40,347 nt of DNA from the NCBI GenBank assembly GCA_031277035.1, contig JAISLY010000036.1, positions 1 through 40,347 on the forward strand. Reading direction: 5' to 3'. The stretch is from Coriobacteriales bacterium (GTDB taxonomy: Bacteria > Actinomycetota > Coriobacteriia > Coriobacteriales > UBA8131). Made by a program: the position numbers and the translations under genes. The notes beneath the pieces were generated by a model. The model made no database searches. It was not told the DNA's origin and saw only the letters and a program-made list of their open reading frames with translations. Positions 540 through 40,165 of this stretch are shown piece after piece (positions within the stretch are counted from its first letter, which is position 1; each line of letters begins with the position of its first letter).

Positions 540-1609
540 TATGACAGGTCCAGGCGGTCAATCATGCAGAGCCCAACATGAGCGGGAGCACCGTAGCGGC
601 CGTGATAGTCTGAGCCACCGGTCACGATGAGCGCGTGATCCCGCGCCAGCTGTTCGACGACGCGCAGGTCGCGTTCGTTGTGGTCTGGATGGTATTTTTC
701 GATGCCGTCGAGCCCCGCGTCAACAAGCGCAGGCACGAATGCGAAGTTGTCCAAACGCCCGGGGTGCGCAAGCACCGCGATACCGCCATCCTCCTTGATG
801 GCCTGCACCGCGTCGCGGGCATCCACATACTCTATATCGCGCTCACATATGTTGCCATCCCGGAAGAACAGGCGATTGAGCCGCTGATAGGCACTGCTCG
901 CATACGGAGCGTCGGTAAGCTGCTCCATGATATGCTGCCGATAGAGTGCGGTCGCATCCTGCGCCGCCTGATATATCGCGGCGCGGTCAAACGCGACACC
1001 GTGCTTCTCCAGCTGTTCCATCTGCCAAAGCGTATTTTCGTGACGCCGCCTGAGAACAGGCTCGCACAGCGCCGCTATCGTAGGCGCATCCTCAGAAAAG
1101 AGCCCCAGTCCAAGAATATGCACTTTGCGATTCCGCTCAAAATCGAAGGCGCTTATCTCCACGCCACCTATGACCCGTATCCCATGCCGACCATCAAGCG
1201 CAAGCGCTGTGGACAGTCCACGGGTCGTATCGTGGTTTGTGAAGGCAAGATGCGTCAGACCCCACTCGCACGCCTGGTCGAGCACCTGCTCAAAGGTCTC
1301 GGAGCCGTCGGATACGGTGGTGTGGATGTGGAGGTCGGCCCGTACGGGAACGGGTGCAGCGGCGGCGCTTCGGCCCGCCGCGGCGCTTCGGCCCGCCGCG
1401 GCGCTTCGTCCGGGCGCGGCGCTTCGGCCCGCCGCGGCGCTTCGTCCGGGCGCGGCGCTTCGTCCGGGCGCGGCGCTTCGTCCCAGTGTGCCAACTCCGG
1501 GCGCAACGCTTCGGCCCGCCACAGCGCTCTGCCCAGGCGCAACGCTTCGGCCTGCCACAGCGCTCTGCCCAGGCGCAGCGCCGTCCCGTACAGCTGCCAT
1601 CTTAGCCAT
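539..1609 (-). CDS. phnPP: PHP-domain cyclic phosphodiesterase of phosphonate degradation (PhnPP)
   Basis: The predicted role is to open 5-phosphoribosyl 1,2-cyclic phosphate, the product of C-P lyase, and then remove the remaining phosphate to yield ribose 5-phosphate. That chemistry is established for the homologous PHP enzyme in the Eggerthella lenta phn operon. The metal-binding PHP motifs are visible: DLHIHT at residues 92-97, then NHDT, GVEIS, HPGR and DYHGR. The ATG at 1609 overlaps the phnL stop by 8 bases and follows AGGAAGG. Residues of roughly 11-88 are an Ala/Gly/Arg/Ser hexapeptide repeat encoded by an 18-bp array, which pushes the catalytic domain far from the start. A short variant could begin inside the repeat, but I see no better ribosome-binding site there. 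Confidence 0.88.
   Translation of the reverse strand: MAKMAAVRDGAAPGQSAVAGRSVAPGQSAVAGRSVAPGVGTLGRSAAPGRSAAPGRSAAAGRSAAPGRSAAAGRSAAAGRSAAAAPVPVRADLHIHTTVSDGSETFEQVLDQACEWGLTHLAFTNHDTTRGLSTALALDGRHGIRVIGGVEISAFDFERNRKVHILGLGLFSEDAPTIAALCEPVLRRRHENTLWQMEQLEKHGVAFDRAAIYQAAQDATALYRQHIMEQLTDAPYASSAYQRLNRLFFRDGNICERDIEYVDARDAVQAIKEDGGIAVLAHPGRLDNFAFVPALVDAGLDGIEKYHPDHNERDLRVVEQLARDHALIVTGGSDYHGRYGAPAHVGLCMIDRLDLS
1364..1489 (-). repeat. 18-bp tandem array in the 5' end of phnPP
   Basis: Seven units, the last diverged, start at 1364, 1382, 1400, 1418, 1436, 1454 and 1472. They alternate between two versions, GGCGCTTCGGCCCGCCGC and GGCGCTTCGTCCGGGCGC. On the minus strand they encode AAxGRS hexapeptides. 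Confidence 0.9.
1501..1572 (-). repeat. 36-bp tandem duplication in the 5' end of phnPP
   Basis: Two nearly identical 36-bp units (1501-1536 and 1537-1572) encode a 12-residue block on the minus strand. They lie just upstream, in gene direction, of the 18-bp array, so two expansions with different periods are stacked within one leader. Confidence 0.85.
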
Positions 1610-2297
1610 CAATAAAACCTTCCTGCATGTTGAACTCCCGATCACAAAGCCCCTCCATGAACTCCAGGTCGTGAAAGATGCCAAGCATCGTGCAGCCGCC
1701 CTGCTTCAAGCGCTCGATAAGCTCGCGCACCTTGCGTTTGGAAGCGTTATCAAGCGAGGCTGTCGGCTCGTCGAGCAGGAGCAACCGGGGCTTTTTAATC
1801 ATCGCGGCGGCAATGTTCAGACGCAGCTTCTCCCCGCCGGAAAAGGTCAGCGGGTACAGCTCCCACAGGCTCTCTGGCAGCTCAAAGTGCCTGAGCAGCC
1901 GTTCCGTTTCCTGCTCGGCATAGGCCCGGTCTCCCTCGCTCACAGCCTCCAGCGCACTTTGCACAACGGTGTCGTAGGCAGTGGTGCGGGGCAATACGTT
2001 GAGAAATTGCGAGATGTAGCCAATCTCAAAGCGTCGCAGGTACAGTATCTCGCGCTCGCTGGCCTTCATGAGGTCCAGCAGGCCGAGAGCCGCCGAACGG
2101 TAGAGGATGCTCCCATCCTGCGGCAGATTCGTGCGGTAGATGCTGCGCAGGATGGTCGATTTGCCGCTCCCACTGCGCCCGGTGATACCGACGAACTCAC
2201 CTGCCTGTACCGTGAGGCTGATAGACGAGCAGCCGCGAATGCTCCGACCGGCTTCATGGAGATAAAAGGACTTGGAAAGCCCCTCTATACGCAGCAT
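1602..2297 (-). CDS. phnL: PhnL, ABC-type ATPase subunit of the C-P lyase system
   Basis: With PhnG, H, I, J, K and M, PhnL takes part in loading phosphonate onto ribose and cleaving the C-P bond. It is an ABC-type ATPase not tied to a membrane permease. Walker A is GRSGSGKST (residues 40-48), the signature is FSGGEKLRLNIA, and Walker B runs into DEPTASLD. IGYISQFLNVLPR matches the Q-loop region of PhnL. I chose the ATG at 2297 because it follows GAGGG and matches the family start. In-frame ATGs at 2321 and 2345 also exist; the region between them is a 24-bp tandem duplication. The 3' end overlaps phnPP by 8 bases. Confidence 0.9.
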   Translation of the reverse strand: MLRIEGLSKSFYLHEAGRSIRGCSSISLTVQAGEFVGITGRSGSGKSTILRSIYRTNLPQDGSILYRSAALGLLDLMKASEREILYLRRFEIGYISQFLNVLPRTTAYDTVVQSALEAVSEGDRAYAEQETERLLRHFELPESLWELYPLTFSGGEKLRLNIAAAMIKKPRLLLLDEPTASLDNASKRKVRELIERLKQGGCTMLGIFHDLEFMEGLCDREFNMQEGFIDG

Positions 2298-2345
2298 GAA
2301 GCCCTCTTCTCTGCGCGACATACGACCTTCTTCTACGCGCGACAT
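2298..2345 (-). repeat. 24-bp duplication at the phnM-phnL junction
   Basis: Two diverged 24-bp units each begin with ATGTCGCGC on the minus strand. This gives phnL three possible in-frame start codons and lets it overlap the phnM stop. Confidence 0.65.
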
Positions 2346-3916
2346 GCGGCCCGCCTGCCCGCGTCGACTCCCCTGCCCGCGTCGACTCCCCTGCCCGCGT
2401 CGGCCCGCCTGCCCGCGTCGACTCCCCTGTTTTCGTCGGCTCCCCTGCTGTCCCGCTCATCATAGTGAGGGTAGCGTGTGTGAAACACCGATCGACCCTC
2501 CACAAAGACCTCCTCAACCACAGGAATGAGCTCGCCGCCCATATCGCTTTTACGCTCGCGTATGAGTAATATATCAGCACGTTTGCCCGCAGCCAGTTCG
2601 CCAAATTCGCGGTCGATGCCAACGGCACGCGCAGGATTGAGGCTTACGAGCGCAAAAGCATGCGGCAGCTCAAGACCGCAGCCGTAATGCAGTTCAAAGA
2701 CCGCGCGCAGCAACGCGGCGGGGCAATAATCGCTGCACAGGATGTCACAGGCGCCCGCGGTGATGGCTTCGCGTGCGGAGAGGTTGCCCGCATGTGAGTG
2801 ACCGAGAAGCACGTTCGGAGCGCCGCCGAGCGTATACATGCCGCGCGCGCGCGCGGTCTGCGCGACGGCCATCGAAATGGGAAATTCCGAGATGCCCGCG
2901 CCAATCTCTCGCATGAACGCGAGTTTCTCAACGCTGTCATCGTCGTGCGAGGCGATGGAAATCCCCCGTTCACGCGCCACGCCTGCCAGATGCCGCACCT
3001 CCTCAAGAGTGAGTTTGGCAGCAGTCTGCTGCTTGTCCACAAGCTCCTGCACCTGCTCATCGCTCAACTCGCCCTTGTAACTCTTAATCGTTTTGGCAAA
3101 AACCTCAAGGTCGCGATACTGCCCCTGCCCCGGTGTATGGTCCATGAACGAGACCAGGTCGACCTTATCCGCCAAAAGGCACTCCTCCACCTCGCGGAAG
3201 CGATCGACGGCGTCAAGCTCAAGACGGACATGCAGGCGATGCCGGATGAGGTGGTCGGTCGTCTCATGCGCACGCATACGATTGATGAGCTCGATGAGCC
3301 GCTCGACGTTCTCAAAGGCGCGGATGGGCTTGTGGTCAAAGATGAGCTGGCGATAGATCGAAAGCGAATGGTACATGGTGGTCACGCCGTAGGAGACGAG
3401 CAGCCGGTCAGCCTCATACAGGGCGGCGCGCAGGTCCAGGACAACGCTCGGCCGCGGCGAGGCGAGGGTCTCGATGTAGTCGGAGTGGATGTCGATAAAG
3501 CCGGGCGCCACGTAGCGACCGGTCGCGTCGATTACCCGCAGACTCGCAGAGGGGGTGCGCGGACGCCCCGGCTCGATGGCAAGGATGCGCCCGCCGGAGA
3601 TAAGCACGTCGTGAGCGGGCGCGAGGCGATCGGCAAGCACCACGGTACCGCCGCTTATGATGGTGGTCGGCAGGCCAGGGAGGTCGGATACCCGGCCGGC
3701 CGGCCGGCCACAGGCCTGGTCGGCTGCCTTGTCGGATACCAGGCCAGCCGCTCTGCCACAGGCCTGGTCGGCTGCCCTGTCGGATACCCGGTCGGCTGCC
3801 CTGCCACGAGCCCGGTCGGGCCCTGCGGCAAAAGGGACTGGGGGCCTCTGTTCCGTGAGTGTTCCCGTGAGTGTTCCTGTGAGTGTTCCCGTGAGTGTTT
3901 CTGTGTCTGTTCGCAT
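2333..3916 (-). CDS. phnM: PhnM, triphosphate-ribosyl phosphonate diphosphohydrolase
   Basis: PhnM removes diphosphate from the 5-triphosphoribosyl phosphonate intermediate, giving the 5-phosphate that PhnJ cleaves. It is an amidohydrolase-fold enzyme. DIHSDYIE matches the metal-binding strand, and SHDDDS, LGHSHAGN and CSDYCP follow in order. The catalytic part (about residues 81-485) fits the usual length near 380-400. The extra length is all repeat: residues 1-80 from a 12-bp and a 48-bp array, and about 40 C-terminal residues from an 18-bp array. The ATG at 3916 follows AAGGGAAG at good spacing and lies upstream of the 12-bp array, so the N-terminal repeats are probably translated. Confidence 0.92.
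   Translation of the reverse strand: MRTDTETLTGTLTGTLTGTLTEQRPPVPFAAGPDRARGRAADRVSDRAADQACGRAAGLVSDKAADQACGRPAGRVSDLPGLPTTIISGGTVVLADRLAPAHDVLISGGRILAIEPGRPRTPSASLRVIDATGRYVAPGFIDIHSDYIETLASPRPSVVLDLRAALYEADRLLVSYGVTTMYHSLSIYRQLIFDHKPIRAFENVERLIELINRMRAHETTDHLIRHRLHVRLELDAVDRFREVEECLLADKVDLVSFMDHTPGQGQYRDLEVFAKTIKSYKGELSDEQVQELVDKQQTAAKLTLEEVRHLAGVARERGISIASHDDDSVEKLAFMREIGAGISEFPISMAVAQTARARGMYTLGGAPNVLLGHSHAGNLSAREAITAGACDILCSDYCPAALLRAVFELHYGCGLELPHAFALVSLNPARAVGIDREFGELAAGKRADILLIRERKSDMGGELIPVVEEVFVEGRSVFHTRYPHYDERDSRGADENRGVDAGRRADAGRGVDAGRGVDAGRRAACRA
2355..2444 (-). repeat. 18-bp tandem array in the 3' end of phnM
   Basis: Five units of CTGCCCGCGTCGACTCCC and variants start at 2355, 2373, 2391, 2409 and 2427. 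On the minus strand they encode a G-V-D-A-G-R type hexapeptide tail on PhnM. Confidence 0.9.
3684..3788 (-). repeat. 48-bp tandem repeat in the 5' end of phnM
   Basis: The marker TCGGATACC recurs at 3684, 3732 and 3780, an exact 48-bp period. On the minus strand each unit encodes 16 residues containing RVSD or LVSD and ADQACGR. Confidence 0.88.
3855..3902 (-). repeat. 12-bp tandem array at the very start of phnM
   Basis: Four copies of GTGAGTGTTCCC or close variants start at 3855, 3867, 3879 and 3891. On the minus strand they encode a tetrapeptide repeat of T, L, T and G, only a few codons after the start codon. Confidence 0.92.
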
Positions 3917-4887: not shown

Positions 4888-5745
4888 TCACGTCTGCGCC
4901 TCCCGCCGCGTCTGCGCCTCCCGCCGCGTTTGGCAGTAACTGGTGTCGTTGCACTGGTGGAAGACCTCCCCGGTGTCGGGGTCGGTCAGTTCGTCAAAAT
5001 ACACGCCCTGAGCCCCACAGACGCGACAGCGGATGCCCTCAAACGTCTCGGGCGCAAAGGGGTAGTCCTCAAAATCGAGCGAGACCACCGAAGTCCAGGG
5101 CGGCACAGCGTATATCTTCTTCTCACGTCCCGCGCCAAGTAAGGTGAGATGCGCGGCATTGTTGAGCTTGTGGTTGTCAAAGCGCGGAATGGGCGAGGGC
5201 GCCATCACGTAGCGACCGTTTACGAGGACGGGATGATCCGCGCCCGTCGTCATGTTGCCATAGCGTACCACCTGCTCAAAGAGGCCAAGCCAGGCGCCCG
5301 TATAGTCCGCCTCGGCGTGAAGGCGGCGCGTTTCGGATTCGCGCGGTTCGATGTCGCGCAAAGGCTCGGGCGTAGGCACCTGCAAGACAAGCACCTGCTC
5401 GGCGGTCAGGGGTACTTCGGGGATGCGATGGCGCGACTGGATAAGGCTTGCCCTGGCCGTCTCGTCCGTAATCTCAACGCCGGTCGTCGCGACGATGAGC
5501 TTTTTGATATTGACCGCATTCACGCTCCCGTCATGCCCCTGATCGATGACCTTGAGCACCTCGTCAGGCCCAATGATGGCCAGCGTTATCTGAAGACCTC
5601 CCGTCCCCCAACCGCGGCCAATCGGCATCTCGCGCGAGGCAAACGGCACCTGATAGCCGGGAATAGCAATGCCTTTGAGAATGGCGCGACGAATCTCACG
5701 TTTGGAGCCCTCGTCAAAAAACGCGAAGTTATACAGCTGTCGCAT
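4888..5745 (-). CDS. phnJ: PhnJ, radical SAM C-P lyase
   Basis: PhnJ is the catalytic subunit that breaks the carbon-phosphorus bond of ribose-1-phosphonate 5-phosphate by radical chemistry, releasing alkane and the 1,2-cyclic phosphate. The four conserved cysteines are present at C240, C243, C265 and C271 (CxxC, then CNDTSYC). This is the spacing of the E. coli enzyme, where they are 241, 244, 266 and 272. Other family signatures are IPGYQVPF, GWGTGG, RHRIPE and GAGREKKIYAVPP. The ATG at 5745 follows AGGAGG and overlaps the phnI stop by 17 bases. The tail is a QTRREA hexapeptide duplication. Confidence 0.96.
   Translation of the reverse strand: MRQLYNFAFFDEGSKREIRRAILKGIAIPGYQVPFASREMPIGRGWGTGGLQITLAIIGPDEVLKVIDQGHDGSVNAVNIKKLIVATTGVEITDETARASLIQSRHRIPEVPLTAEQVLVLQVPTPEPLRDIEPRESETRRLHAEADYTGAWLGLFEQVVRYGNMTTGADHPVLVNGRYVMAPSPIPRFDNHKLNNAAHLTLLGAGREKKIYAVPPWTSVVSLDFEDYPFAPETFEGIRCRVCGAQGVYFDELTDPDTGEVFHQCNDTSYCQTRREAQTRREAQT
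4891..4926 (-). repeat. 18-bp tandem duplication in the 3' end of phnJ
   Basis: Two identical 18-bp units (4891-4908, 4909-4926) encode QTRREA twice at the C-terminus, immediately after the last cluster-binding cysteine. Confidence 0.85.
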
Positions 5746-6955
5746 GGCTGGCCTCCTGGCTTCCGTCTGTCCTTTCCTCCCGGGCGAAAGCGGCCCCGGG
5801 GACGTCTGCATCATGCCTGGTTCGCCGCACGCTGTTCAGCTTTGACTGGAAGGTCACGTAATGGGGCAGCTTCAGATGGGAGATAAAGCCCGTCGCCTCG
5901 ATGCTGTCGACGTGGTACAGCACAAATTCCTCATCCTGAGTGGGAAAGGTCTCGTCGCCAAGCGTCAGGCAGTGGTCGAGTATGCTCATCGCGATGGCCT
6001 TGCTCTCCGCGCGTCCGTAGACAAGCCCGTAGCCGATGGCGAAGCTCAGTTCGTGCGTGTCGTCTGCAGACGCCGCTTCCTGCTCTTCGCGTTCGACGCT
6101 GAACAGGCTCTCGACCTCCGTGACCGCAAGCGCACCCACGTAATAGGCATCCTCCTCATCTCCGGCCTCAAAGGGGTGGTCGACCAGCACGTCAAGTGTG
6201 CCGTAGCGCAACTCGCCCACCGTGGGATGCGCGGGGCCAAAGCCGCGAAGCGCGGCGTAGCCAAGCGCCATGACCGCCTGTGTCATGCCGCGTGCGAGTA
6301 TCTGAAGACGGACATCGCGACCCGCAGGAAAGCTCAGCGGCTCCATGGTGATGTCCCGGGGCGGCGTGTCGTCGGGCGGCGGAGGCGTGAGGAGGCCCTG
6401 TGCCCTGAGGGAGGCGGCGACTTTTGGAAGATTGGGAAAGCCCTGGGGCGCTTCCGCGGCGGGGGCGGACACGGCGGGGGCGGGGGCGGGGGCAGGCACG
6501 GCGGGAACGGGAGCAGGCGCCGCAGGACTGGCAGAATCGGAAGCCTGCTCTTCTCCGTCAAGGCGAAAATCAAGCAGGCGGTGACTGTAGTCGCGTGTCA
6601 CGCCCAGTATCTGTCCGCCGAGAATATCCTTAAAGGCCGCCGAGATTCGGCGTTTAACCCTCATGTTCCCCGTTTCGATAATCCGCGAGGTATAGGGCCG
6701 CTCCAGAGTCGAGCGAAAGGCCCGCAACAGGAAAACCGCCTCTTCCACCGAACCTCCCCCCTGCCTGAGGGCAAGCGCCGCAAGCGAAGGTTCGTACAGC
6801 GAACTTTCTCCCATCACCTGGTCGATAAGCTCGGGCAGGGCGGCGGCTATCCGCGCGCTGGCCACATTGGCGGCGGGGTCAGAGAGGCCCTCGGAAAGGA
6901 GCTCAAGGCTTGCCGCTATCGCTTCCTCGCCGCCGCTGACCGCTACATAGGCCAC
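5729..6955 (-). CDS. phnI: PhnI, C-P lyase core subunit
   Basis: PhnI, with PhnG and PhnH, attaches the phosphonate to ribose, displacing adenine from ATP. It forms part of the PhnGHIJ core. The start YVAVSGGEEAI matches the family, and family blocks such as RPYTSRIIETG and KRRISAAFKDILGGQILGVTRDYSHRLLDF-type text follow in order. The GTG at 6955 lies one base after the phnH stop and behind AGGAGG; a longer frame upstream has no such support. Residues of about 137-171 are a Pro/Ala-rich linker inside the protein, a repeat-like insertion. Confidence 0.93.
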   Translation of the reverse strand: MAYVAVSGGEEAIAASLELLSEGLSDPAANVASARIAAALPELIDQVMGESSLYEPSLAALALRQGGGSVEEAVFLLRAFRSTLERPYTSRIIETGNMRVKRRISAAFKDILGGQILGVTRDYSHRLLDFRLDGEEQASDSASPAAPAPVPAVPAPAPAPAVSAPAAEAPQGFPNLPKVAASLRAQGLLTPPPPDDTPPRDITMEPLSFPAGRDVRLQILARGMTQAVMALGYAALRGFGPAHPTVGELRYGTLDVLVDHPFEAGDEEDAYYVGALAVTEVESLFSVEREEQEAASADDTHELSFAIGYGLVYGRAESKAIAMSILDHCLTLGDETFPTQDEEFVLYHVDSIEATGFISHLKLPHYVTFQSKLNSVRRTRHDADVPGAAFAREERTDGSQEASHATAV

Positions 6956-7694: not shown

Positions 7695-8356
7695 CGGCTC
7701 ATCGCCCCTCCCCCTGCGCGATCCTCTTCGGTCAACATGTCGGCAAAGCTGACTCGCGTCGCCTCAAGTCGGTCTCGCGCCGCACGCTCGTGGACAGAAA
7801 GCCGTTCTTCCTCCTGTTCAAGCGCAGCGCACCAGCCCGGCATCTGAGCGGCGATTGCCGGCACCGTCCGTGCACCAAAGGCCGCGTCGATAACCGCCAG
7901 TTCGTAGGCCCTCTCAGCCTTACGCCCGAGGATAAGCCCGATGCCAATGCTCTGACCAAGCCTGACCTTACACTCGGTGAGCAGTGCTTCGCCGAGATAG
8001 AACAGGCTGTTTTGGGCACTTTCTCGCACCTTGTTCATCAGGAGAATTTCGCGCGGCCCATCAAGACGCTCGATGGGAGCCAGCGCCTCAATCTGCGCGC
8101 ACAGCTCACGCGCAAGCCCTGCGTCCCCCTCAATGAGGACGCGGGTGCGACGCCTGCGCGACAGCGACTGGCCTGCGTGCGAATGCGTGCTCTGGTCTGC
8201 GTGCGAATGCGTGCTCTGGTCTGCGAGAGACAGCGGCTCGTCTGCGTGCGAATGCGTGCTCTCGCCGACGCGAGAAGGCGCTCGCTCGTCTGCGGAGACG
8301 GAGGCATGGGCACCTTCAGGCTGCCCTGCAAGGCGGGTCTCGGGTACCGACATCAC
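7691..8356 (-). CDS. phnG: PhnG, C-P lyase core subunit
   Basis: PhnG is a small core subunit needed with PhnH and PhnI for ribose-phosphonate formation. Recognition rests on KVRESAQNSLFYLGEALLTE and the following VRLGQSIG, typical of PhnG. The core of about 150 residues begins near residue 70. Residues 30-66 are a repeat of THSHADQ-type octapeptides from a 24-bp array. The start is GTG at 8356, overlapping the phnE stop as GTGA; the next codon is ATG and could be used instead. Confidence 0.9.
   Translation of the reverse strand: MMSVPETRLAGQPEGAHASVSADERAPSRVGESTHSHADEPLSLADQSTHSHADQSTHSHAGQSLSRRRRTRVLIEGDAGLARELCAQIEALAPIERLDGPREILLMNKVRESAQNSLFYLGEALLTECKVRLGQSIGIGLILGRKAERAYELAVIDAAFGARTVPAIAAQMPGWCAALEQEEERLSVHERAARDRLEATRVSFADMLTEEDRAGGGAMSR
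8173..8265 (-). repeat. 24-bp tandem array in the 5' end of phnG
   Basis: Units CTGCGTGCGAATGCG plus CTCTGGT start at 8173, 8197 and 8242, with a diverged 21-bp unit between the second and third. They encode STHSHADQ-like octapeptides on the minus strand. Confidence 0.88.
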
Positions 8357-9213: not shown

Positions 9214-10172
9214 AGGATCGCCCGCCTGATGAAGTTTGAGGTGAGTTCCAGCGAGATAACCACGATGACGATTGCGATGACTACCAGGCCGGCCGCAGCG
9301 TAGTTAAAACTCTTATAGTACAAATCGAAGACAAAGCCGATGCCCGTGCCTGTCAGAATGCCAATCAGGGTGGCGTCGCGAACGTTGGTCTCAATCATGT
9401 AGAGTATCCAGCTCAACACGACGGTTGAGCAAAGCGGTATGACCGCCTGAGCGATAATCTGCCCGTAGCTGGCCCCCGTGGCTCGCAGGGCCTCGACCGC
9501 ACCGCCTGAGACCTCGTCGATGCTCTCGAGAAAACAGCGCATCAAATAGCCGAAACTCGTAAGGAACAGGGCCAGAAAGCCCGTGAACTCGCTTTGTTTG
9601 AAGGAAAAGAGCAGGATGAGGGCCCAGGCAACGGTCGGGATATTCCGAAAGAGCGAGGCGATGGCGCGAACAATCAGCTGAGCGGGGCCACCCACGCCCA
9701 CCGAGCGCGAGCCGAGAACCGCAAAAACGAGTGCAAGCAGGGCAGAAAGGCAGCTTGCGGCGATGGAGACGAGCACGGTGGCGGCCAGCTGATTGAGTAT
9801 CGTCGGCAATTTTGCAAGCGATTCGACAGAAGGGATAAAGTTCACGAACATCCACGCGAGGCCCGCCGGCACGTCGATGAGGGTCTTGACGAGATCGAAG
9901 TCGAGGTAGTTTCCAGTCAGGAGATTGAGGAGCACAAGCCCTACAGCGACACCTATGATGACAAAGGTGCGGCGATGGAAAAATGCCGCGAGCCGCGCAG
10001 TGCCACTGGGGTTGAGGCCGCCGCCGACGGCAACAGCGGCAGCGGCGGGAGCAGCTGAGGCAACAGCGGCAGCGGAGGCGGCGGGGGCAGCTGAGGCAAC
10101 AGCGGCAGCGGGGGCAGCAGCCTTGCCGTCGGCGGCGGCGGCTGAGGCGGCCTTGCGTTCCTTTCTGCTCAT
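9210..10172 (-). CDS. phnE: phosphonate ABC transporter permease PhnE (first copy)
   Basis: Inner-membrane permease of the phosphonate importer, with a contact loop ALRATGASYGQIIAQAVIP. It differs enough from the next permease that the two probably form a heterodimer. The N-terminal 50 or so residues before the first helix are an Ala-rich repeat (AAPAAAVAS type). The ATG at 10172 overlaps the phnC stop as ATGA and follows AGGTGG. The C-terminus ends in GTGIGFVFDLYYKS and a last helix. Confidence 0.92.
   Translation of the reverse strand: MSRKERKAASAAAADGKAAAPAAAVASAAPAASAAAVASAAPAAAAVAVGGGLNPSGTARLAAFFHRRTFVIIGVAVGLVLLNLLTGNYLDFDLVKTLIDVPAGLAWMFVNFIPSVESLAKLPTILNQLAATVLVSIAASCLSALLALVFAVLGSRSVGVGGPAQLIVRAIASLFRNIPTVAWALILLFSFKQSEFTGFLALFLTSFGYLMRCFLESIDEVSGGAVEALRATGASYGQIIAQAVIPLCSTVVLSWILYMIETNVRDATLIGILTGTGIGFVFDLYYKSFNYAAAGLVVIAIVIVVISLELTSNFIRRAIL
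10030..10131 (-). repeat. 30/36-bp tandem array in the 5' end of phnE
   Basis: The block GCAACAGCGGCAGCGG recurs at 10030, 10060 and 10096, periods of 30 and 36 bp. It encodes an Ala-rich N-terminal extension ahead of the first membrane helix. Confidence 0.82.
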
Positions 10173-13447: not shown

Positions 13448-14166
13448 TCGGGCCAATCGGGCGCGGGCGAAGATGCGGGGGTGGGCGCGGCGGGCGGAGC
13501 GGGCGGAGCAGGCGGAGCGGGATTAGGCGCGGGCTCGGGCGCGGGCGGAGCAGGATTAGGCGCGGGCGCGGGCTCGGGCGAGGATGCGGCGGGCGGCGCG
13601 GCGGGCGCGGGCTCGGGCGCGTGGTGCTCGTTCATCGCCTGGAGGATGCCATCTTTGAGGGCGGCGCGGGCGAGCTCAGCCGCCCGGGCGCAGGTCAGCG
13701 CAAACTCCTCCAACTCGCTGCCCTTCATGCGGGCCAGAACAAAGTCGGCAGCGTCCATGCGCCCGGGCGGACGCCCGATGCCCACGCGCAGGCGCGCGTA
13801 GTCGGAGCCAAGCGCCTGGTGCAGCGAGCGCAGGCCCTTGTGCCCGCCCGCGCCGCCGCCCAACTTCAGGCGCAGGGTGCCGGGAGAAAGGTCGAGTTCG
13901 TCGTGGATGACCAGCATGTCAACAGCGCTCAGGCCAAGGCGGGCAAGAGCCCCCTTCACCGGACCACCGCTGAGGTTCATGAAGGACTGAGGCTTGAGGA
14001 GCACGACCTTCTCACCCTCACAGGAAGCCACTCCCATAAGGGCATCGCCCGCAAGTTTCCAGTAGTTCACCTTCAGTTCGTCCGCCAGCAGGTCAACAAC
14101 GCGAAAGCCCGCGTTGTGGCGGGTATCGACGTAGGCAGGCCCGGGGTTTCCGAGCCCGACAATCAT
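13444..14166 (-). CDS. pth: peptidyl-tRNA hydrolase
   Basis: Pth recycles peptidyl-tRNA released from stalled ribosomes. The start MIVGLGNPGPAYVDTRHNAG contains the catalytic His and Asn region. GPVKGAL, VIHDELDL and GGGAGGHKGLRSL follow as in the family, and RLRVGIGRPPG is present. The ATG at 14166 follows AAAGG and matches the family; a GTG at 14187 is a weaker option. After about residue 185 the protein ends in a Pro/Ala/Glu tail of about 55 residues built from PAPPAPEPAP-type repeats, not part of the enzyme fold. Confidence 0.94.
   Translation of the reverse strand: MIVGLGNPGPAYVDTRHNAGFRVVDLLADELKVNYWKLAGDALMGVASCEGEKVVLLKPQSFMNLSGGPVKGALARLGLSAVDMLVIHDELDLSPGTLRLKLGGGAGGHKGLRSLHQALGSDYARLRVGIGRPPGRMDAADFVLARMKGSELEEFALTCARAAELARAALKDGILQAMNEHHAPEPAPAAPPAASSPEPAPAPNPAPPAPEPAPNPAPPAPPAPPAAPTPASSPAPDWPE
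13473..13621 (-). repeat. Pro/Ala-coding imperfect repeat in the 3' end of pth
   Basis: A purine-rich, very GC-rich run of GGCGGAGCG, GGCGCGGGC and GATTAGGCG motifs repeats irregularly. On the minus strand it encodes the PAPPAPEPAP tail of Pth. Unit boundaries are blurred, so I give no single period. Confidence 0.75.
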
Positions 14167-16711: not shown

Positions 16712-16735
16712 GAACGAGAGAACGAGAGAACGAGA
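16712..16735. repeat. 8-bp tandem array
   Basis: Three copies of GAACGAGA start at 16712, 16720 and 16728, and run into the stem of the adjacent hairpin. The array is intergenic and its period is not a multiple of three. Confidence 0.8.
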
Positions 16736-24886: not shown

Positions 24887-24936
24887 CTCAGGGGGTGCCC
24901 ACTCAGGGGGCGCCCACTCAGGGACGCCACTCAGGA
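24887..24936. repeat. 13-15-bp tandem array between convergent genes
   Basis: CTCAGGG-led units start at 24887, 24902, 24917 and 24930, with spacing 15, 15 and 13. The array is intergenic between the foldase and MATE stops, and one unit has lost two bases. Confidence 0.8.
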
Positions 24937-24964
24937 GGGCTCGGCTCAGCAAGGGACATACGCG

Positions 24965-27257: not shown

Positions 27258-27284
27258 GGGAGGACTATAGCAGAGAGCGCGGCG

Positions 27285-27412
27285 TCACGGGGCCGGTGCG
27301 TCGGCGTCACGGGACTGGTGCGTCGGCGTCACAGGGTCATGCGCCCTGCCAGAGTCGACGCGTCGGCGTCACGGGGTCATGCGCCCTGCCAGAGTCGACG
27401 CGTCGGCGATGC
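27285..27412. repeat. 22- and 40-bp tandem repeats between ribU and birA
   Basis: The core TCGGCG recurs at 27301, 27323, 27363 and 27403 with spacings of 22, 40 and 40 bp. The two 40-bp units are almost identical and contain GCGCCCTGCCAGAGTCGACG. The array lies between the ribU stop and the birA start and has no period divisible by three. It may separate the two transcripts. Confidence 0.85.
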
Positions 27413-32831: not shown

Positions 32832-33986
32832 TCACCCTGCGGCGAGTTGCCCGCAGGCGCCGAGAATATCGGCGCCTCGGGAGCGACGTACGGTGGCCTC
32901 GATACCTCTGTTCGAAAGCACGTGTGCCGCTTCCCGCAGCCGCTGGGGCGACGCGGGCCTGAGGTCGGACGCGCCGCCAGCATTGAGGGGAATGAGATTG
33001 ATGTGCACCAGCATTCCCCGGCAGTATTCCGCAAGCGCGTTTATCTCCTCGGGCGTGTCGTTGATGCCATCGATGAGCACGACTTCCAACGTGGGACGCC
33101 GCCCGCTGGTCTGCGCGTAGGTGATGAGCGCTTCGCGCAGCTCATCGAGTGGGTAGCGGGCCAGCGCGGGCATCAGCATATCGCGGGTTGCCTGCACGGC
33201 CGAATGCAGCGAGACCGCGAGGGTAAACTGCTCGGGTTCAAGCGTCAGACGACGTAGCTGCGGAAGCAGGCCGCAGGTCGAAATCGTGAGATGACGTGCG
33301 CCGATGCCAAGGCCGTCGGGGGCGTTCATCAGCCGCAGGGCGGCCAGGGTCGCGTCGTAGTTGGCCAGGGGCTCACCCTCTCCCATGGCAACGGCGTTGG
33401 TGACGCGACAACCGAAGTCATCCGCCACAACAAGGAGTTGGTCGGCCATCTCACCAGGTGCAAGCTGACGGGTAAGGCCCAGGCGCCCCGTTGCGCAGAA
33501 GGCGCAGCCCATGGCACAACCGACCTGGGTGGAGAAGCAGACCGTCAGGCGGGTAGACGGGCGGTCGGATGAGTGGGTGGGCGACGAAGCGCTCGGCAGA
33601 CCGACCGCCTCGATACGCGCGCCGTCCGCCAGTCGCAAAAGATATTTGCGCGCACCGTCCTGCGAGTGGTGCACCTGGAGCAGTTCGGGCACGGCAAGCG
33701 GCGCGGCGGTATGCAGCCGCTCACGCAAACGAGCTGGTAGGTCGGTCATCTCATCGTAGGTCGCCACACCGCGACCATACAGCCAACGGAGCAGTTGCTT
33801 TGCGCGATAGGCGGGCTCGCCAAGCGATGCCAACAGCTCACGCAGGCCGTCCAGGCCGTAGCGCTTGATGCCGATGCGGGGGTCGTCGACGTCGGCGGAG
33901 GTCGCGGGGGTCGCGGGGGTCGCGGGAGCCGCGGGGGCGACGTCGGCGGGAGCCGCGCCAAACTCTGTCGGTACAATTGAAGTCAT
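32832..33986 (-). CDS. rlmN: 23S rRNA (adenine-2503 C2) and tRNA methyltransferase RlmN
   Basis: RlmN is a radical SAM methyltransferase acting on 23S rRNA A2503 and some tRNAs. The cluster motif is C157-x3-C161-x2-C164 (CAMGCAFC), the SAM loop is MGEGEPLANYD, and the second catalytic cysteine lies in GACGQL near the end. The usual MGMGEP is MGEGEP here. The core is of normal length, while residues of about 11-34 are an Ala/Pro/Thr repeat. The ATG at 33986 has only a poorly spaced GGGAG before it; I chose it because the family start lies downstream and no other start fits. Confidence 0.93.
   Translation of the reverse strand: MTSIVPTEFGAAPADVAPAAPATPATPATSADVDDPRIGIKRYGLDGLRELLASLGEPAYRAKQLLRWLYGRGVATYDEMTDLPARLRERLHTAAPLAVPELLQVHHSQDGARKYLLRLADGARIEAVGLPSASSPTHSSDRPSTRLTVCFSTQVGCAMGCAFCATGRLGLTRQLAPGEMADQLLVVADDFGCRVTNAVAMGEGEPLANYDATLAALRLMNAPDGLGIGARHLTISTCGLLPQLRRLTLEPEQFTLAVSLHSAVQATRDMLMPALARYPLDELREALITYAQTSGRRPTLEVVLIDGINDTPEEINALAEYCRGMLVHINLIPLNAGGASDLRPASPQRLREAAHVLSNRGIEATVRRSRGADILGACGQLAAG
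33890..33957 (-). repeat. Ala/Pro/Thr-coding repeat at the start of rlmN
   Basis: GTCGCGGGG 9-bp units (about 33900-33930) and related blocks encode the PATPATPA-type N-terminus of RlmN. Confidence 0.7.
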
Positions 33987-34280
33987 GCTCCCATTGTAGC
34001 CGTTGTCCTCTATAATGAGCGGAAGGCAGCCTGCGCCGGGGTCACCGAGTCGGCGGGACTGGCGACGGGGCCGCCAGCGGTGGGGCGTCGGGCCGACGGG
34101 GCGGCGGGTCGGCAGCGACAGCGACGGGGCCGGCAGCGGCGAGGCGGCGGACCGGCAGCGGCAGCGGCGAGGCGACGGCAACGAGAGCACAGCAGCCCGA
34201 CGGGGCGGCGGCAACGAGAGCGCAGCGAGGGCGCGGCCCGACAAGGGGGCAGCGCCGGACCACGGAGAGGAGTCTACGGG
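33987..34280. promoter_or_regulatory. promoter and GC-rich repeat leader of ddl
   Basis: A perfect TATAAT (34011-34016) stands out just upstream of a long GC-rich stretch; no good -35 lies at the usual distance. From about 34070 to 34260 there are imperfect GGCAGCGGCGAGG- and GACGGGGCGGCGG-type repeats. They are open in the ddl frame, but ddl appears to start after them. Confidence 0.4.
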
Positions 34281-35288
34281 TTGAGACAGGCGTATCCCAA
34301 CGATACAGACTGTCGAGCGATGGCACAGACCGCCGTCGACGCGGTTCGTGGACGCATACACACCGTCGCCGTCTTGCTTGGCGGTACCAGCGGTGAGCGC
34401 CCGATTTCTTTTGCCGGCGGCATCAACGTGGCACACGTGCTTGAGGCCGCTGGCTTGGCCGTGATGCGCATCGATCCGGCTGAAGACGACTGGCTCGCCC
34501 AGTTGCAACAGTGTGCGCCGGATGTCGTTTTCATCGCATTGCACGGCCAAAACGGCGAAGACGGCACCGTGCAGGGCCTGCTCGACCTTCTCCACATCCC
34601 CTATACCCACAGCGGAGTACTCGCAAGCGCGCTTGCTATGGACAAAGAGCGGAGCAAGGTGCACTATCGCGCGATGGGCCTTGCGGTGCCGGCGAGTGTG
34701 CCGGTGTGCCGGGGTGAGCATGTCGAGCTGAACGCGCTTATCGAGGTCGTTGGGCTGCCGTGTGTGGTCAAGCCGGTCTGCGACGGGTCGTCCCTTGGCG
34801 TCGCGATTCCCAAGACAATCGAAGCATTGACGGTGGCCCTTGAGGAGGCCTTCGCCATCGCCAGAGAGGTCATGGTCGAGGAGTTCATCGCTGGCGTAGA
34901 GGTCACGGTGCCTGTGATTGGCAACACGCGAGGACAGGCTCTGCCGGTCATCGAGATTATCCCTGCCGCCGAATTCTACGACTATGACTCCAAGTACCTC
35001 GAAGGGGGCTCCCAGCATATCATCCCGGCGCGGATTACCGCAACACAGACGACGCTCTGCCAGCACGCCGCCGTCTGCGCCCACGAGGCGCTGGGCTGCC
35101 GTGGCGTATCGCGAACCGACCTCATCGTCAGTCCCGATGGCATACCCTATGTGATTGAGACGAACACGATACCCGGCATGACCAACACCTCACTGGTTCC
35201 GGAATCGGCTCAGAAAGCGGGGCTTGAGCCGAGCCTGTTCTACCAGTATCTGCTCGCTTTGGCTCTGGAGGCGCAGGACGGTTTGTAG
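34281..35288 (+). CDS. ddl: D-alanine-D-alanine ligase
   Basis: Ddl joins two D-Ala for peptidoglycan. Motifs: GGTSGERPISF near the N-terminus, HGQNGEDGTVQGLLDLL, VVKPVCDGSSLGV, EVTVPVIG and the C-terminal IETNTIPGMT. I propose TTG at 34281 behind GGAGAGGAG; an ATG at 34320 is an alternative. Length (335) suits the family. A longer frame upstream runs through the repeat leader and is unlikely. The last codons resemble the units of the intergenic array that follows. Confidence 0.92.
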   Translation: MRQAYPNDTDCRAMAQTAVDAVRGRIHTVAVLLGGTSGERPISFAGGINVAHVLEAAGLAVMRIDPAEDDWLAQLQQCAPDVVFIALHGQNGEDGTVQGLLDLLHIPYTHSGVLASALAMDKERSKVHYRAMGLAVPASVPVCRGEHVELNALIEVVGLPCVVKPVCDGSSLGVAIPKTIEALTVALEEAFAIAREVMVEEFIAGVEVTVPVIGNTRGQALPVIEIIPAAEFYDYDSKYLEGGSQHIIPARITATQTTLCQHAAVCAHEALGCRGVSRTDLIVSPDGIPYVIETNTIPGMTNTSLVPESAQKAGLEPSLFYQYLLALALEAQDGL

Positions 35289-35381
35289 GCGCGCGGCGGC
35301 CCTGTAGGCGCGCGGCGGCCCTGGAGGCGCGCGGCGGGGCTTGAGGCGCGGAGCGCCCTGGAGGCGCAGGGCGGTTTGTAA
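35287..35381. repeat. 18/19-bp tandem array after ddl
   Basis: AGGCGC-led units start at 35269 (within ddl), 35287, 35306, 35325, 35344 and 35362, spacing 18, 19, 19, 19 and 18. The last unit repeats the final 24 bases of ddl with two changes. It lies in the gap before the thioredoxin-reductase-like gene. Confidence 0.88.
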
Positions 35382-36506: not shown

Positions 36507-37097
36507 ATGTCTGCTCGAAAGATGCCGACAGGCGAAGAGCCGCCCAAAGGCTACGAGTCGCTCATCGAGAAGCCGAAGACTGACGATGTGCAGGTCAAGG
36601 GTGTCTTTGCCAGTCAGCTTGCTAAAAGCGAGCGGGCAGAAATTGACGCTTTGCGCCGAAAGGCGCTTTCATCCATCAATTCGCTCGTCGGCCTGACGAA
36701 TGACATTCTCACCTTTGAAGATGAAATCAATGTCATCGCAGAGAAGAACCTCTCCGACAAGATGTTGTTTTTGGCACGCAAAGATACGGTGCTGGCAGGC
36801 TATGCGCTCGTGGTCATCGGTTGGCCGAATCCCGGCGTCTGGACGATTCAGCACATGGTTATCAACCCCGATAATCGACTGCAGGGCGTAGGCACAACAA
36901 TCGTGCAGAAGGTGGAGGGCTATGCCCTCACCTCGGAGGTCGCCTCGGAAAACATCTTTGCCATCCCCATCGAGCGCGCCGGAACCGGGTTTTGGAAGTT
37001 CCTCGGATATACGGTGGAGACCGGCCGGCTACCCGTACGCGTTGCCGGCCTGGATCATGAGTTGGTTATCTGCCGCAAGGAGCTCCCACCAATCTGA
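36507..37097 (+). CDS. GNAT-family N-acetyltransferase
   Basis: A 196-residue protein. The acetyl-CoA loop is RLQGVGTTIVQKVE (R/QxxGxG type), preceded by VWTIQHMVINPDN, the usual beta-4 strand, and followed by FWKFLGYTVETGR, the usual GNAT C-terminus. Substrate unknown. The ATG at 36507 follows GGAG. Codons upstream are open but unsupported. It is followed by a repeat-rich gap. Confidence 0.85.
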   Translation: MSARKMPTGEEPPKGYESLIEKPKTDDVQVKGVFASQLAKSERAEIDALRRKALSSINSLVGLTNDILTFEDEINVIAEKNLSDKMLFLARKDTVLAGYALVVIGWPNPGVWTIQHMVINPDNRLQGVGTTIVQKVEGYALTSEVASENIFAIPIERAGTGFWKFLGYTVETGRLPVRVAGLDHELVICRKELPPI

Positions 37098-37278
37098 GCC
37101 GCGTGCGGCAAGGCAGGGCAAGGCGCGGCGCGTGCGGCAGGGCAAGCCGAGCCGCGGCAAGGCGCAGCGCGTGCGGTAGGGCAAGGCGAGCCGCGTGCGG
37201 CAAGGCAGGGCGCGGCGCGTGCGGCAAGGCAAGGCAAGCCGCGGCAGGGCGCGGCGCGTGCGGCAGGGCAAGCCGCGT
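37098..37278. repeat. GC-rich imperfect repeats between GNAT gene and ispH
   Basis: GCGTGCGGCAAGGCAGGGC, GCGTGCGGCAGGGCAAG and GAGCCGCG blocks recur irregularly across the whole gap between two converging stops. I cannot define one period. No gene is credible here. Confidence 0.75.
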
Positions 37279-37280: not shown

Positions 37281-38213
37281 CTAAAGCTGCCCGAGCGCCT
37301 CTTCAACAGCAAGTATCTGCGATTCTGGCGTGGAGGCTCCCGCGGTCACACCGACAACCCGCACCCCCGTAAACCAGACCGCCTCAATCTCCGCGGGGCT
37401 CTCGATGTGATAGGTGCGCGGACAGACCTCCTGGCACAGTTCGGCCAATCGCGTGGTATTGCCGGAGTTGCGCCCGCCGACAACGAGAACCGCATCCACC
37501 TCGCCTGACAGCTTGATGGCGGCCTCCTGGCGTTGCCGTGTTGCAAAGCAGATGGTGTTACGCACCTGGGGCGCAACCCCGCGCCCCTCAAGCGCACAGA
37601 CGATGGCCTCAAGTGCCGCGGCGGACTGCGTGGTCTGTACGACAACGCCGATGCGCTGCGAAGGCAGGTTTTTGGGCAGGTCTGAAGGCTCTTGGACAAC
37701 AAGGGCTCCTCTGCCCGCGTACGCGCTGATTGCCTCGACCTCGGGATGCCCGCGCTCCCCCACCACGATGACGGTATAGCCCTCTACGCGCAGCTCCTGC
37801 GCAGCCTGTTGTGCCTTGGAGACGTGCGGACAGGTCGCGTCGACAACGGCCAGGCCCTTCTCGCAGGCAGCCTCGACGATCTGAGGCGCAACACCGTGAG
37901 AACGCAGCACGAGAACGCCCGCGTCTACCTCCGCGACCGTGGCCGCCTCGACAACGCCACGCTCGCGCAACTCGGCAACCACCTGCGGATTGTGGATCAG
38001 GGGGCCGAGGGTATGGACCGGCGTGGCAGAATCCGTAGGCGCGGCCGTGGGCGAGGCCGTGAGTGCGGAGGTTCCGAGGGGCGGTGCCGTGGGCGAGGCC
38101 GTGAGTGCGGAGGTTCCGAGGGGCGTCTGGGCGGCCACAGCCTGATCCACCAGCGCCAAAGCGCGCTCGACACCATAGCAGGCGCCGGCATAGCGTGCGC
38201 GAACGATCCTCAT
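37281..38213 (-). CDS. ispH: 4-hydroxy-3-methylbut-2-enyl diphosphate reductase
   Basis: IspH performs the last MEP-pathway step, giving IPP and DMAPP. The three cluster cysteines are present: GACYGVERAL (C12), VDATCPHV and RNTICFATRQRQ. GERGHPEVE, SGNTTRL and GVTAGASTP follow the family order. A Thr/Ser/Ala/Pro insertion from a 42-bp repeat (residues about 28-65) lies 15 residues after C12, between the first helix and the conserved GPLIHN motif. The ATG at 38213 follows GGGAGGAG and overlaps the plsC stop. Confidence 0.95.
   Translation of the reverse strand: MRIVRARYAGACYGVERALALVDQAVAAQTPLGTSALTASPTAPPLGTSALTASPTAAPTDSATPVHTLGPLIHNPQVVAELRERGVVEAATVAEVDAGVLVLRSHGVAPQIVEAACEKGLAVVDATCPHVSKAQQAAQELRVEGYTVIVVGERGHPEVEAISAYAGRGALVVQEPSDLPKNLPSQRIGVVVQTTQSAAALEAIVCALEGRGVAPQVRNTICFATRQRQEAAIKLSGEVDAVLVVGGRNSGNTTRLAELCQEVCPRTYHIESPAEIEAVWFTGVRVVGVTAGASTPESQILAVEEALGQL
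38044..38127 (-). repeat. 42-bp tandem duplication inside ispH
   Basis: GCCGTGGGCGAGGCCGTGAG begins at 38044 and again at 38086, a 42-bp period. Each unit encodes 14 residues (PLGTSALTASPTA plus one). Confidence 0.9.
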
Positions 38214-39007
38214 TGCTCCTCCCCGGGCGCCCTCAGCGCAGCCGGGCGCGGAGGCTCTTCGCCGGGCGCCCTCAGCGCAGCCGGGCGCGGAGGCTCCTCT
38301 CCGCAGACGACCGGGCGCGGGGGCTCCAGCGAATAGACACGCCGCATCACCTCGTCGGTAAAGGCCGCCAGCAGTGCATCCTTCTCCATATCCCTGAACA
38401 TTTCGTCGTCGAGGGAAAGCGGTTCGCCAAAGCGCAGGGTGACACGTGGCAAACGGAGGAAATGTGCGCCTTTTGGCCAGATGCGTTCGGTGCCCCAAAG
38501 GCGCACCGGCAACACCGTCGCCTTCGCAAGACGCGCGATAAGCGCAACCCCCTCGTGGTAGACCACCGTTTGGTCGGCGGAGCGGACGCGGGTGCCCTCG
38601 GGAAAGATGCCCACGTACTCGCCTCGTTTGAGCATCCGCGCCGTACGTTTGACGGCGGCGAGGTCGGCCGTATCGCGCCGAACGGGAAAGGCGCCGACCC
38701 AGGCGGCCAGTCGGGCGATAAGCGGGTGGAGGGTAAATATCTCCTCCTTGGCCATGAAGCGCACGGGGCGCGGCCGCAGCACGCTGAGCACGAAGAGCGG
38801 ATCGAGATTGGAGTGATGGTTACCAGCAATGATAAGCCCCTGCCCCTCGGGCAGTTTTGCTAATTGTTCATGCAGGTCATAGGCCCGATAGCGAAACATC
38901 GCGCCAAAAATGACGCGAATGAGCCCGGCAAAGAACGCGCAGAACTTCTGGGAGTAGCGACCTTCTCCCCAGCTCGGATTGTCGTAGAAGTAGTCGAGAG
39001 GTCTCAT
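38210..39007 (-). CDS. plsC: 1-acyl-sn-glycerol-3-phosphate acyltransferase
   Basis: PlsC adds the second acyl chain in phosphatidic acid synthesis. The catalytic motif is NHHSNLDP (residues 63-70) and the phosphate-binding motif FPEGTR (135-140). A hydrophobic N-terminal helix near residue 25 would anchor it to the membrane. The C-terminal 35 residues or so are a duplicated 13-residue unit (PRPAALRAPGEEP) outside the enzyme fold. The ATG at 39007 follows the cmk stop by 2 bases. Confidence 0.93.
   Translation of the reverse strand: MRPLDYFYDNPSWGEGRYSQKFCAFFAGLIRVIFGAMFRYRAYDLHEQLAKLPEGQGLIIAGNHHSNLDPLFVLSVLRPRPVRFMAKEEIFTLHPLIARLAAWVGAFPVRRDTADLAAVKRTARMLKRGEYVGIFPEGTRVRSADQTVVYHEGVALIARLAKATVLPVRLWGTERIWPKGAHFLRLPRVTLRFGEPLSLDDEMFRDMEKDALLAAFTDEVMRRVYSLEPPRPVVCGEEPPRPAALRAPGEEPPRPAALRAPGEEQ
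38224..38301 (-). repeat. 39-bp tandem duplication in the 3' end of plsC
   Basis: CGGGCGCCCTCAGCGCAGCC begins at 38224 and 38263, a 39-bp period. Both copies are nearly identical and encode the PlsC tail. Confidence 0.88.
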
Positions 39008-39009: not shown

Positions 39010-39828
39010 TCAGTTGGTCGGTGCCTTGCGTTCGCGAACCGGCCGTTCGTCTACCGGCTGCCCGTCTGTCGGCTGCGGCGTCTGCCGTTCGTCTGCCGGC
39101 TGCCCGTCTGCCGGCTGCGGCGTCTGCCGTTCGCGCACCAGGGCCACAACCTGGGAGACAACCTGCTCAATGGAAAGATCGGTGGTGTCAAGAACTCTGG
39201 CGTCCGGCGCTTTGGCCAAAGGTGCCGTCTTACGCGAGCTGTCATAGGTGTCGCGACGATGTATGTCGGCAAGGATGGCCGCCTCGTCAAGACCGGTATA
39301 CGGTTGCCCCTTGGCCCTGGCCTTCTTCACGTTCTGGCGGTGGCGACGACGCGCCCGCTCCTCAGCGCTGGCCGTCAGAAAGACCTTCAGTTCGGCGTCT
39401 GGAAAAACCACGGTTCCGATGTCGCGCCCCTCCATCACCGTATCCTGCGCTCGACCGATGGTGCGCTGCTGCTCGGTGAGCGCGGCGCGTACGCCGGGAT
39501 CTGCGGAGACCGGCGAGACCGCCACGTCGGCTTCGGCAGTGCGAATCTGTGCGGTCACATCCTCACCGCTGATGAAGACCTGGGATGGCAAGGGGTCTTT
39601 GGGCAGATAACCAAAGCTGATGGGCTCAACGGTGGCAATCTGCGCGATGCGCTCACGCGTCGTCTGGGGCAGCGGATCGCTGAGATCGAGGCCCTCCTCC
39701 AAGGCCCGCCAGGCAACCGAGCGATACATGGCCCCGGTATCCAGATAGGCAAAGCCAAGCTCACGAGCAACCAGTTTGGCAACCGTTGACTTGCCGGAAC
39801 TCGCCGGCCCGTCAATAGCGATAATCAT
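39010..39828 (-). CDS. cmk: cytidylate kinase
   Basis: Cmk phosphorylates CMP and dCMP. Motifs: MIIAIDGPASSGKST (Walker A), YLDTGAMYR, EGRDIGTVVFPDA, and the lid RRDTYDSSR followed by APL. A longer upstream frame runs through the 14-bp array and is not real; the ATG at 39828 follows AAGGGAG. About 35 C-terminal residues form a 14-residue repeat (RQTPQPADGQPADE). It is first in a cmk-plsC-ispH set, a gene order I recall from other Actinobacteria. Confidence 0.95.
   Translation of the reverse strand: MIIAIDGPASSGKSTVAKLVARELGFAYLDTGAMYRSVAWRALEEGLDLSDPLPQTTRERIAQIATVEPISFGYLPKDPLPSQVFISGEDVTAQIRTAEADVAVSPVSADPGVRAALTEQQRTIGRAQDTVMEGRDIGTVVFPDAELKVFLTASAEERARRRHRQNVKKARAKGQPYTGLDEAAILADIHRRDTYDSSRKTAPLAKAPDARVLDTTDLSIEQVVSQVVALVRERQTPQPADGQPADERQTPQPTDGQPVDERPVRERKAPTN
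39045..39128 (-). repeat. 42-bp tandem duplication in the 3' end of cmk
   Basis: GTTCGTCT begins at 39045 and 39087, a 42-bp period, with a partial third unit at 39129. The copies are nearly identical and encode the Cmk tail. Confidence 0.9.
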
Positions 39829-40074
39829 CAGGGCTCCCTTAATCTCAGTCAACACTTCATGCAGGGCAACAGGAACCATTGTACCATCTGAGGATTCGGT
39901 CAGGAATTTCCACACAGATATCATACGCAAACGCTCGGGCGACGGAAGGAAGGGCGCGAGAGAGGCGCTGGCCTGCGCTGCGATTGGACAGACTTGCAGA
40001 AGGCGGCATGGCCAGATAAGGAGTGCGGCAGATTGTGCGATTTTGTAGCGGAGCTCCGTCCCAGAATCCCGGCA

Positions 40075-40165
40075 TGCGTCCAGCGACCTGCGTCCAGCGA
40101 CCTGCGGCCAGGGACCTGCGTCCAGGGACCTGCGACCAGGGACCAGGGACCTGCGACCAGGGACC
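40075..40165. repeat. 14-bp tandem array upstream of cmk
   Basis: TGCGTCCAGCGACC and variants start at 40075, 40089, 40103, 40117 and 40131, an exact 14-bp period, then a longer unit at 40152. It is intergenic, since cmk starts at 39828. No gene is seen in the whole 39829-40176 gap. Confidence 0.9.

Follow-up and report, generated by a model that had tools for sequence, protein, structure and literature searches.

Bacterial minisatellite or variable-number tandem repeat (VNTR) loci consist of tandem units of tens of base pairs that are thought to change via slippage or short-homology recombination. Such loci made up 2–4% of variable loci in an E. coli comparison and usually number only a few per genome (PMC2884548), and minisatellites have been described as underrepresented in prokaryotic genomes (PMC3324548). 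The closest precedent for the arrays reported here is the tandem repeats of Borgs, linear extrachromosomal archaeal elements in which perfect, A-enriched copies occupy 0.3–1.0% of the genome (regions of at least 50 nt with at least three units; PMC9879509). Here we describe short tandem arrays in a 40,347-nucleotide contig of a Coriobacteriales bacterium (JAISLY010000036.1; the whole stretch is called the window) and in the rest of its genome. On a bacterial chromosome such a density of arrays is highly unusual, and they arise anew at tolerant spots (gene tails, linkers and gaps) with a different repeated sequence each time. They work like Borg repeats but are not members of that system.

As in Borgs, the arrays are pervasive both in and between genes. 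By the Borg length and unit criterion, 0.70 Mb of the genome holds 182 regions, 119 in open reading frames (ORFs) and 63 intergenic, with a coverage of 2.7% (1.1% at a match of at least 80%). The two systems also have in common in-gene units divisible by three beside intergenic units that mostly are not, nearly every unit being unique and of recent, independent origin, amino acids of the disorder type, and reuse of sites within some proteins. Unlike the perfect repeats of Borgs, none of the 182 regions is perfect, and 26 have a match of at least 90%. Composition also differs, as the arrays are GC-rich or near-neutral rather than A-enriched; in coding sequences their A content is 0.166 versus a background of 0.193, with G and C enriched. 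Furthermore, they lie in core bacterial enzymes on ordinary chromosomal contigs. An earlier note, made from the letters of the window alone, knew of no named system that does this. Borg repeats are such a named precedent, although none on a bacterial chromosome appeared in the literature searched. Nor did we find a published description of such arrays in Coriobacteriia (most subscription journals lay outside the search).

Other known repeats resemble the arrays in part. Head-to-tail units of roughly 10–100 bp place them in the minisatellite/VNTR class; unlike usual VNTR loci, they number hundreds per genome and include housekeeping enzymes. For prokaryotic simple sequence repeats (SSRs), a bias to gene termini has been described (PMC2621210). 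The present repeats likewise avoid gene middles; unlike SSRs, their units measure 8–93 bp in the window. Lin and Kussell, in 2012, reportedly described the terminus bias of prokaryotic SSRs for very short units (microsatellites). Phase-variation contingency loci also carry tandem repeats at or near gene starts. Unlike in those loci, nearly all in-gene periods here are multiples of three and core enzymes are hit; since the units keep the frame and sit in core enzymes, on/off switching is not expected. Repeated units between genes are also found in mycobacterial interspersed repetitive units (MIRU), in repetitive extragenic palindromic and bacterial interspersed mosaic elements (REP/BIME) and in clustered regularly interspaced short palindromic repeats (CRISPR). 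Whereas MIRU and REP/BIME each form one unit family, the units here are unrelated, and unlike CRISPR repeats those of the window stand head-to-tail, imperfect and without spacers.

Array density, duplication and turnover

Contig C51, the window, belongs to a metagenome-assembled genome (MAG) of 1.82 Mb (62 contigs, 72.7% complete, 4.5% contamination). Judged by Prs, its closest named relatives are MAGs of uncultured Coriobacteriia and Eggerthellaceae, in line with an uncultured member of the Coriobacteriales. The species is represented by this one MAG, as assembled contigs only, and a 0.70-Mb sample of it is the basis of the genome-wide counts and controls. Arrays were called with Tandem Repeats Finder (TRF) and overlapping calls were merged; a score of at least 50 defined an array and a score of at least 100 a strong array. 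The sample contains 356 arrays of head-to-tail units with a median period of 24 bp (5–95% range 12–54) and a median match between copies of 87%. Strong arrays occur at 2.2 per 10 kb in the sampled genome and at 5.0 in the window, which lies at its upper end (other stretches, 0–5.8). The same-genus genome G001, our sister species, has 0.9 strong arrays per 10 kb, the family members G005 and G011 have 0.7 and 2.0, and the remaining sampled members of the family and order have 0–0.8; relatives were sampled in part and several samples are small (4–60 kb), so single density values for these are rough. The density was 0.33 in other Actinomycetota (367 kb pooled) and 0.09 at 71 unrelated loci from diverse bacteria.

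We used two controls on the 0.70-Mb sample, and the arrays far exceed chance. Intergenic DNA resampled from its own dinucleotides yielded 3–8 arrays versus 129 observed. When synonymous codons were redrawn with the protein kept, 16–26 arrays scored at least 100 compared to 97 observed, and 1–6 scored at least 150 compared to 39. Weak arrays partly survived this recoding, with about 100–126 of 222 left at a score of at least 50. As recoding and resampling remove most strong arrays, we conclude that most strong arrays are DNA duplications.

Arrays are filtered by both frame and site. The period is divisible by three in 218 of 224 in-gene arrays (97%) and in 56 of 132 between genes, a value slightly above one third that is probably due to missed genes. 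Compared to random placement, arrays are 2.87-fold as frequent between genes and 0.58-fold as frequent in gene interiors. The frame rule also holds in G011 (34 of 35 in-gene and 15 of 42 intergenic periods), where 55% of arrays fall in the intergenic 18% of the DNA. The intergenic excess, with its unconstrained periods, argues for a mutational supply of arrays rather than one that protein function drives. In-gene arrays are enriched 1.7–2.2-fold in Pro, Ala and Gly, are also rich in Thr and contain few bulky residues, a make-up that would be expected for disordered segments.

Units are unrelated from array to array and turn over completely between related species. Similarity was detected at E<=1e-3 in 245 of 63,190 array pairs and was strong in nine, in agreement with the earlier note's view that the units differ and are not copies of one mobile repeat. 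In 43 orthologous genes that the MAG and G001 have in common (mean core identity 72%), one genome holds 33 arrays and the other 20. None of these 53 arrays has a unit in common with the other genome, which upholds the proposal of independent local expansions and shows that the arrays are not identical in the sister. However unrelated in sequence, 22 of the 53 coincide with an array in the other genome, compared to 6.2 expected for random placement within the same genes; examples are the PHP protein, the bPH2 linker, the Cmk tail and the PhnJ tail. Termini and unaligned linkers or loops account for 47 of the 53, and arrays are depleted in, rather than equally frequent in, conserved parts. On the mechanism proposed below, the same sites would be hot in both genomes because few places per gene tolerate insertions. 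Arrays have been fully turned over between two species of one genus, and their sites have been reused.

Insertions are also seen in repair enzymes. RecG has an in-frame insert of 81–303 bp near model position 460 in about a dozen family members and none in some other genomes, and it varies within genera (141 bp in G000, none in G001; 81 bp in G005, none in G023). The one RecG insert read, that of G011, holds 18-bp and 9-bp repeats. Together with interrupted RecJ matches in G005 and G019, the RecG inserts suggest that repair enzymes are themselves insertion hot spots. The PolA gene of the MAG (L259, contig C27) contains four tandem arrays, two of them without a counterpart in the same-genus PolA.

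Two large arrays of the MAG (L202, 4152–6173; 653 and 876 bp) are 74% alike over 636 bp and are perhaps parts of a long repetitive protein. The PhnL gene of G001 (L116, C8) carries an in-frame insert, GQKGTVPVSPFTADDKMGHGNRSLLSSGEPRDIE, that is not in the window PhnL and may be a palindromic element within coding sequence, similar to those of Rickettsia.

Arrays of the window

The earlier note had counted at least 20 separate arrays between 1364 and 40165, and TRF bears this out with 28 merged arrays, 20 of them with a score of at least 100, spanning 1362 to 40166. Their density is 6.9 per 10 kb and they occupy 6.8% of window bases. The genes among which they lie are a bacterial core set (Pth, Prs, GlmU, PurE, Ddl, RlmN, IspH, PlsC, Cmk), partly syntenic with G001. 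The arrays are listed below, with no strand given for those outside genes.

1362..1484, minus strand: 18/54-bp array in the N-terminal extension of the PHP-domain protein (AAPGRS-type repeat); the sister has an AGVAER repeat at the equivalent site
1500..1581, minus strand: 36-bp array in the N-terminal extension of the PHP-domain protein
2354..2448, minus strand: 18-bp array, 5.3 copies, in the PhnM C-terminal tail at the PhnM/PhnL junction; not in sister
3683..3826, minus strand: 48/24-bp array in the PhnM N-terminal extension; not in sister
3849..3912, minus strand: 12/24-bp array in the first codons of PhnM (TLTGTLTG); not in sister
4891..4929, minus strand: 18-bp array, 2.2 copies (100%), at the PhnJ C-terminus (REAQTR); the sister has an unrelated 33-bp array at the equivalent place
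6457..6518, minus strand: 27-bp array, an insertion (PAPAPAV) within the PhnI domain match
8160..8299, minus strand: 24/69-bp array in the PhnG N-terminal extension
10029..10121, minus strand: 18/36-bp array at the N-terminus of a PhnE-type permease
13475..13621, minus strand: 33/42-bp array in the Pth C-terminal tail, beyond the Pept_tRNA_hydro domain
15193..15298, minus strand: 42-bp array in the GlmU C-terminal tail
16200..16312, minus strand: 42-bp array within the degenerate N-terminal part of GlmU
16712..16740: 8-bp array, 3.6 copies, intergenic between GlmU and a FAD-binding protein
24887..24940: 13/15-bp array, intergenic, between the FKBP/rotamase and MATE genes
26381..26588, minus strand: 57/18-bp array in the MATE transporter N-terminal extension (PPVAEQSPVAEQ)
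27280..27408: 22- and 40-bp arrays, intergenic, between the genes of the BirA-type ligase and the ECF transporter
29310..29506, plus strand: nested 15/45/93-bp array in the N-terminal part of the second bPH2 protein (QQGVPPQGMP)
30040..30110, plus strand: 21-bp array (AAGGAAL) in the linker of the second bPH2 protein; the sister has a 24-bp LPPVAGGV array at the equivalent site
30460..30489, plus strand: 15-bp repeat, weak and probably no true array, in a transmembrane stretch rich in leucine
33876..33937, minus strand: 9/18-bp array at the RlmN N-terminus (APATPATPATSA)
34133..34227: 33-bp array, intergenic between RlmN and Ddl
35287..35367: 19-bp array, 4.3 copies, intergenic, beginning at the Ddl stop codon
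35960..35998, plus strand: 18-bp array within a TrxB-like reductase (EGAEGVEGAKTVEG)
37096..37275: 39/87-bp array occupying the whole gap from the GNAT gene to IspH
38033..38125, minus strand: 42-bp array, 2 copies (100%), a 34-aa insertion in an IspH (LytB) loop; not in sister IspH
38215..38303, minus strand: 39-bp array, 2.3 copies, in the PlsC C-terminal tail, overlapping the IspH start; not in sister PlsC
39042..39133, minus strand: 42-bp array, 2.2 copies, in the Cmk C-terminal tail (TPQPADGQPADE); the sister has a 33-bp AKLVESSTDQS array at the equivalent site
40075..40166: 14/28-bp array immediately upstream of cmk

Classed by their midpoints, 7 arrays fall between genes, 13 no more than 150 nt from a gene end and 8 deeper inside genes; the IspH array counts as terminal by this rule, since its midpoint is at most 150 nt from the gene start, though it is inside LytB. 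Among the eight deeper arrays, several belong to N-terminal extensions (of the PHP protein, PhnM and the MATE protein) or to linkers (in the bPH2 protein). True in-domain insertions are few (IspH 38033–38125, PhnI 6457–6518, TrxB 35960–35998, GlmU 16200–16312). The statement that nearly all arrays sit at gene ends, in linkers or in gaps therefore holds, with four or five exceptions. In the window, the period is a multiple of three in each of the 21 in-gene arrays.

In GlmU (15164–16576), the hexapeptide domain is recognisable and the nucleotidyltransferase domain has no Pfam match at E<=1e-5. Judging from its sequence, this protein, with its N-terminal part broken by an array, may lack uridylyltransferase activity. 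An ordinary flavin mononucleotide (FMN) riboswitch lies at 28108–28241, upstream of the ECF riboflavin-type transporter gene (27453–28043).

Proposed mechanism and alternatives

We consider it probable that the arrays are minisatellites and stem from a process, still active across the genome, of raised local tandem duplication and slippage, with fast turnover and selection against arrays that break frame or fold. Short stretches, mostly 12–57 bp, would be tandemly duplicated, and the duplicated units would then expand, contract, decay and vanish through replication slippage or unequal sister-strand exchange. Between genes, selection would let arrays of any period survive. Within genes, the survivors would be almost only those with a period that is a multiple of three and an insertion in a terminus, linker or surface loop. 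Slippage is the likely molecular step and most arrays appear to be near-neutral. The duplication rate seems to be raised in this lineage, perhaps aided by missing repair functions.

Several points weigh against this process. The unit of the IspH array has no counterpart in the sister IspH, so the source of a unit is not necessarily a sequence that the sister has, and the earlier suggestion that arrays expand whatever sequence was there is not supported. Gene calls for the MAG came from a home-made model, and some arrays scored as intergenic may sit in missed genes. Loss of the PolA 5' nuclease, RecJ or XseA was rejected as a cause, all three being present in the MAG. No repair gene tested separates the repeat-rich MAG and G011 from repeat-poor relatives without SbcD. 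Hairpin-driven expansion was likewise rejected, as the folding energy of array DNA is not in excess (z +0.15 versus -0.26 in controls).

Other repair functions were considered across the order. MutS1 had no match above cut-off in any of 41 order genomes, and a search for NucS in five Coriobacteriales genomes found none. These losses are broader than the trait and not sufficient, and mismatch-repair loss was rejected as the specific cause. Ku is absent from 41 of 41 genomes, and Ku-dependent end joining was set aside. SbcD had no match in 22 of 25 family genomes and was above cut-off in 8 of 16 order genomes of other families. However, repeat-poor family members lack it too (G003, G006, G010, G024), and its loss is at most permissive. 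G-quadruplex motifs are present in 30 of 152 arrays compared to 1 control, probably reflecting base composition.

It should also be noted that window positions 262–539 hold adjacent palindromes with arms 262–301/381–420 (95%) and 431–468/502–539 (38 nt, 100%, motif AAAGGGACGGTTCC). The element at 432–538 occurs at about 20 places in the genome on both strands, as a family like miniature inverted-repeat transposable elements (MITE) or REP. Long perfect palindromes are consistent with the absence of SbcD.

The arrays could instead reflect selection on proteins. Tails and linkers that are disordered and rich in Ala, Pro and Gly would be favoured, and biased codon use in such low-complexity peptides would give rise to the DNA repeats as a by-product. 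The residue make-up of in-gene arrays and the weak arrays that outlast recoding point this way. However, recoding removes most strong arrays, including most of those scoring at least 150, and the 2.9-fold enrichment between genes, at periods not bound to three, largely refutes protein selection as the sole cause; we regard this explanation as unlikely. An active, specific machinery that adds units, such as a polymerase that copies a template, a nuclease or an integrase, has been a matter of speculation for Borg elements. Here it would fit the very high density confined to some lineages, the units without a counterpart in the sister (IspH) and the independent origin at many sites. Against it, no unit is common across arrays, no candidate enzyme was identified, and ordinary slippage accounts for the range of periods and for the nesting of units into higher-order ones, which makes such a machinery rather improbable.

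Two technical explanations fare worse. Genomes rich in GC might simply hold more chance repeats; array GC is 0.72 versus 0.60 elsewhere in the genome, and G062, an actinobacterium with 72% GC, has 1.25 strong arrays per 10 kb. Yet G011 is as repeat-rich at 45% GC, with an array GC of 0.49, and we therefore reject GC-richness as the cause. Moreover, G037 and G033, of the same order and with 64–65% GC, have 0 strong arrays, and composition-preserving resampling yields almost none. A low-complexity artefact of high GC is hardly credible. The MAG is fragmented and incomplete, and short-read metagenome binning could have produced chimeric or mis-joined repeat copies. This is very improbable as well, given that copies have diverged, that 97% of in-gene periods keep the frame and that G001, G005 and G011, binned separately, show the same pattern. 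Where copies are perfect, assembly errors tend to collapse them, which has been reported for Borgs (PMC9879509). Such collapse of long perfect repeats would bias our counts downward, and the true density could be higher.

Implications for the family

Beyond the process proposed above, a more specific idea can be put forward tentatively. Some lineages of the family may be tandem-duplication mutators, in which a specific change in replication or repair, on a background without MutS or NucS and mostly without SbcD, drives continuous minisatellite birth. Tails, linkers and loops of core enzymes would then be rewritten faster than congeneric species diverge, and the process would be the bacterial equivalent of the one behind Borg repeats.

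In this genome, minisatellites make up several percent of the chromosome, enter core enzymes and turn over completely between congeneric species at conserved sites. Such genomes are likely to have predictable errors in their start codons, domain edges and short-read assemblies. They also offer a natural system for the rate of short tandem duplication, the repair functions that restrain it and the birth of new disordered protein segments.

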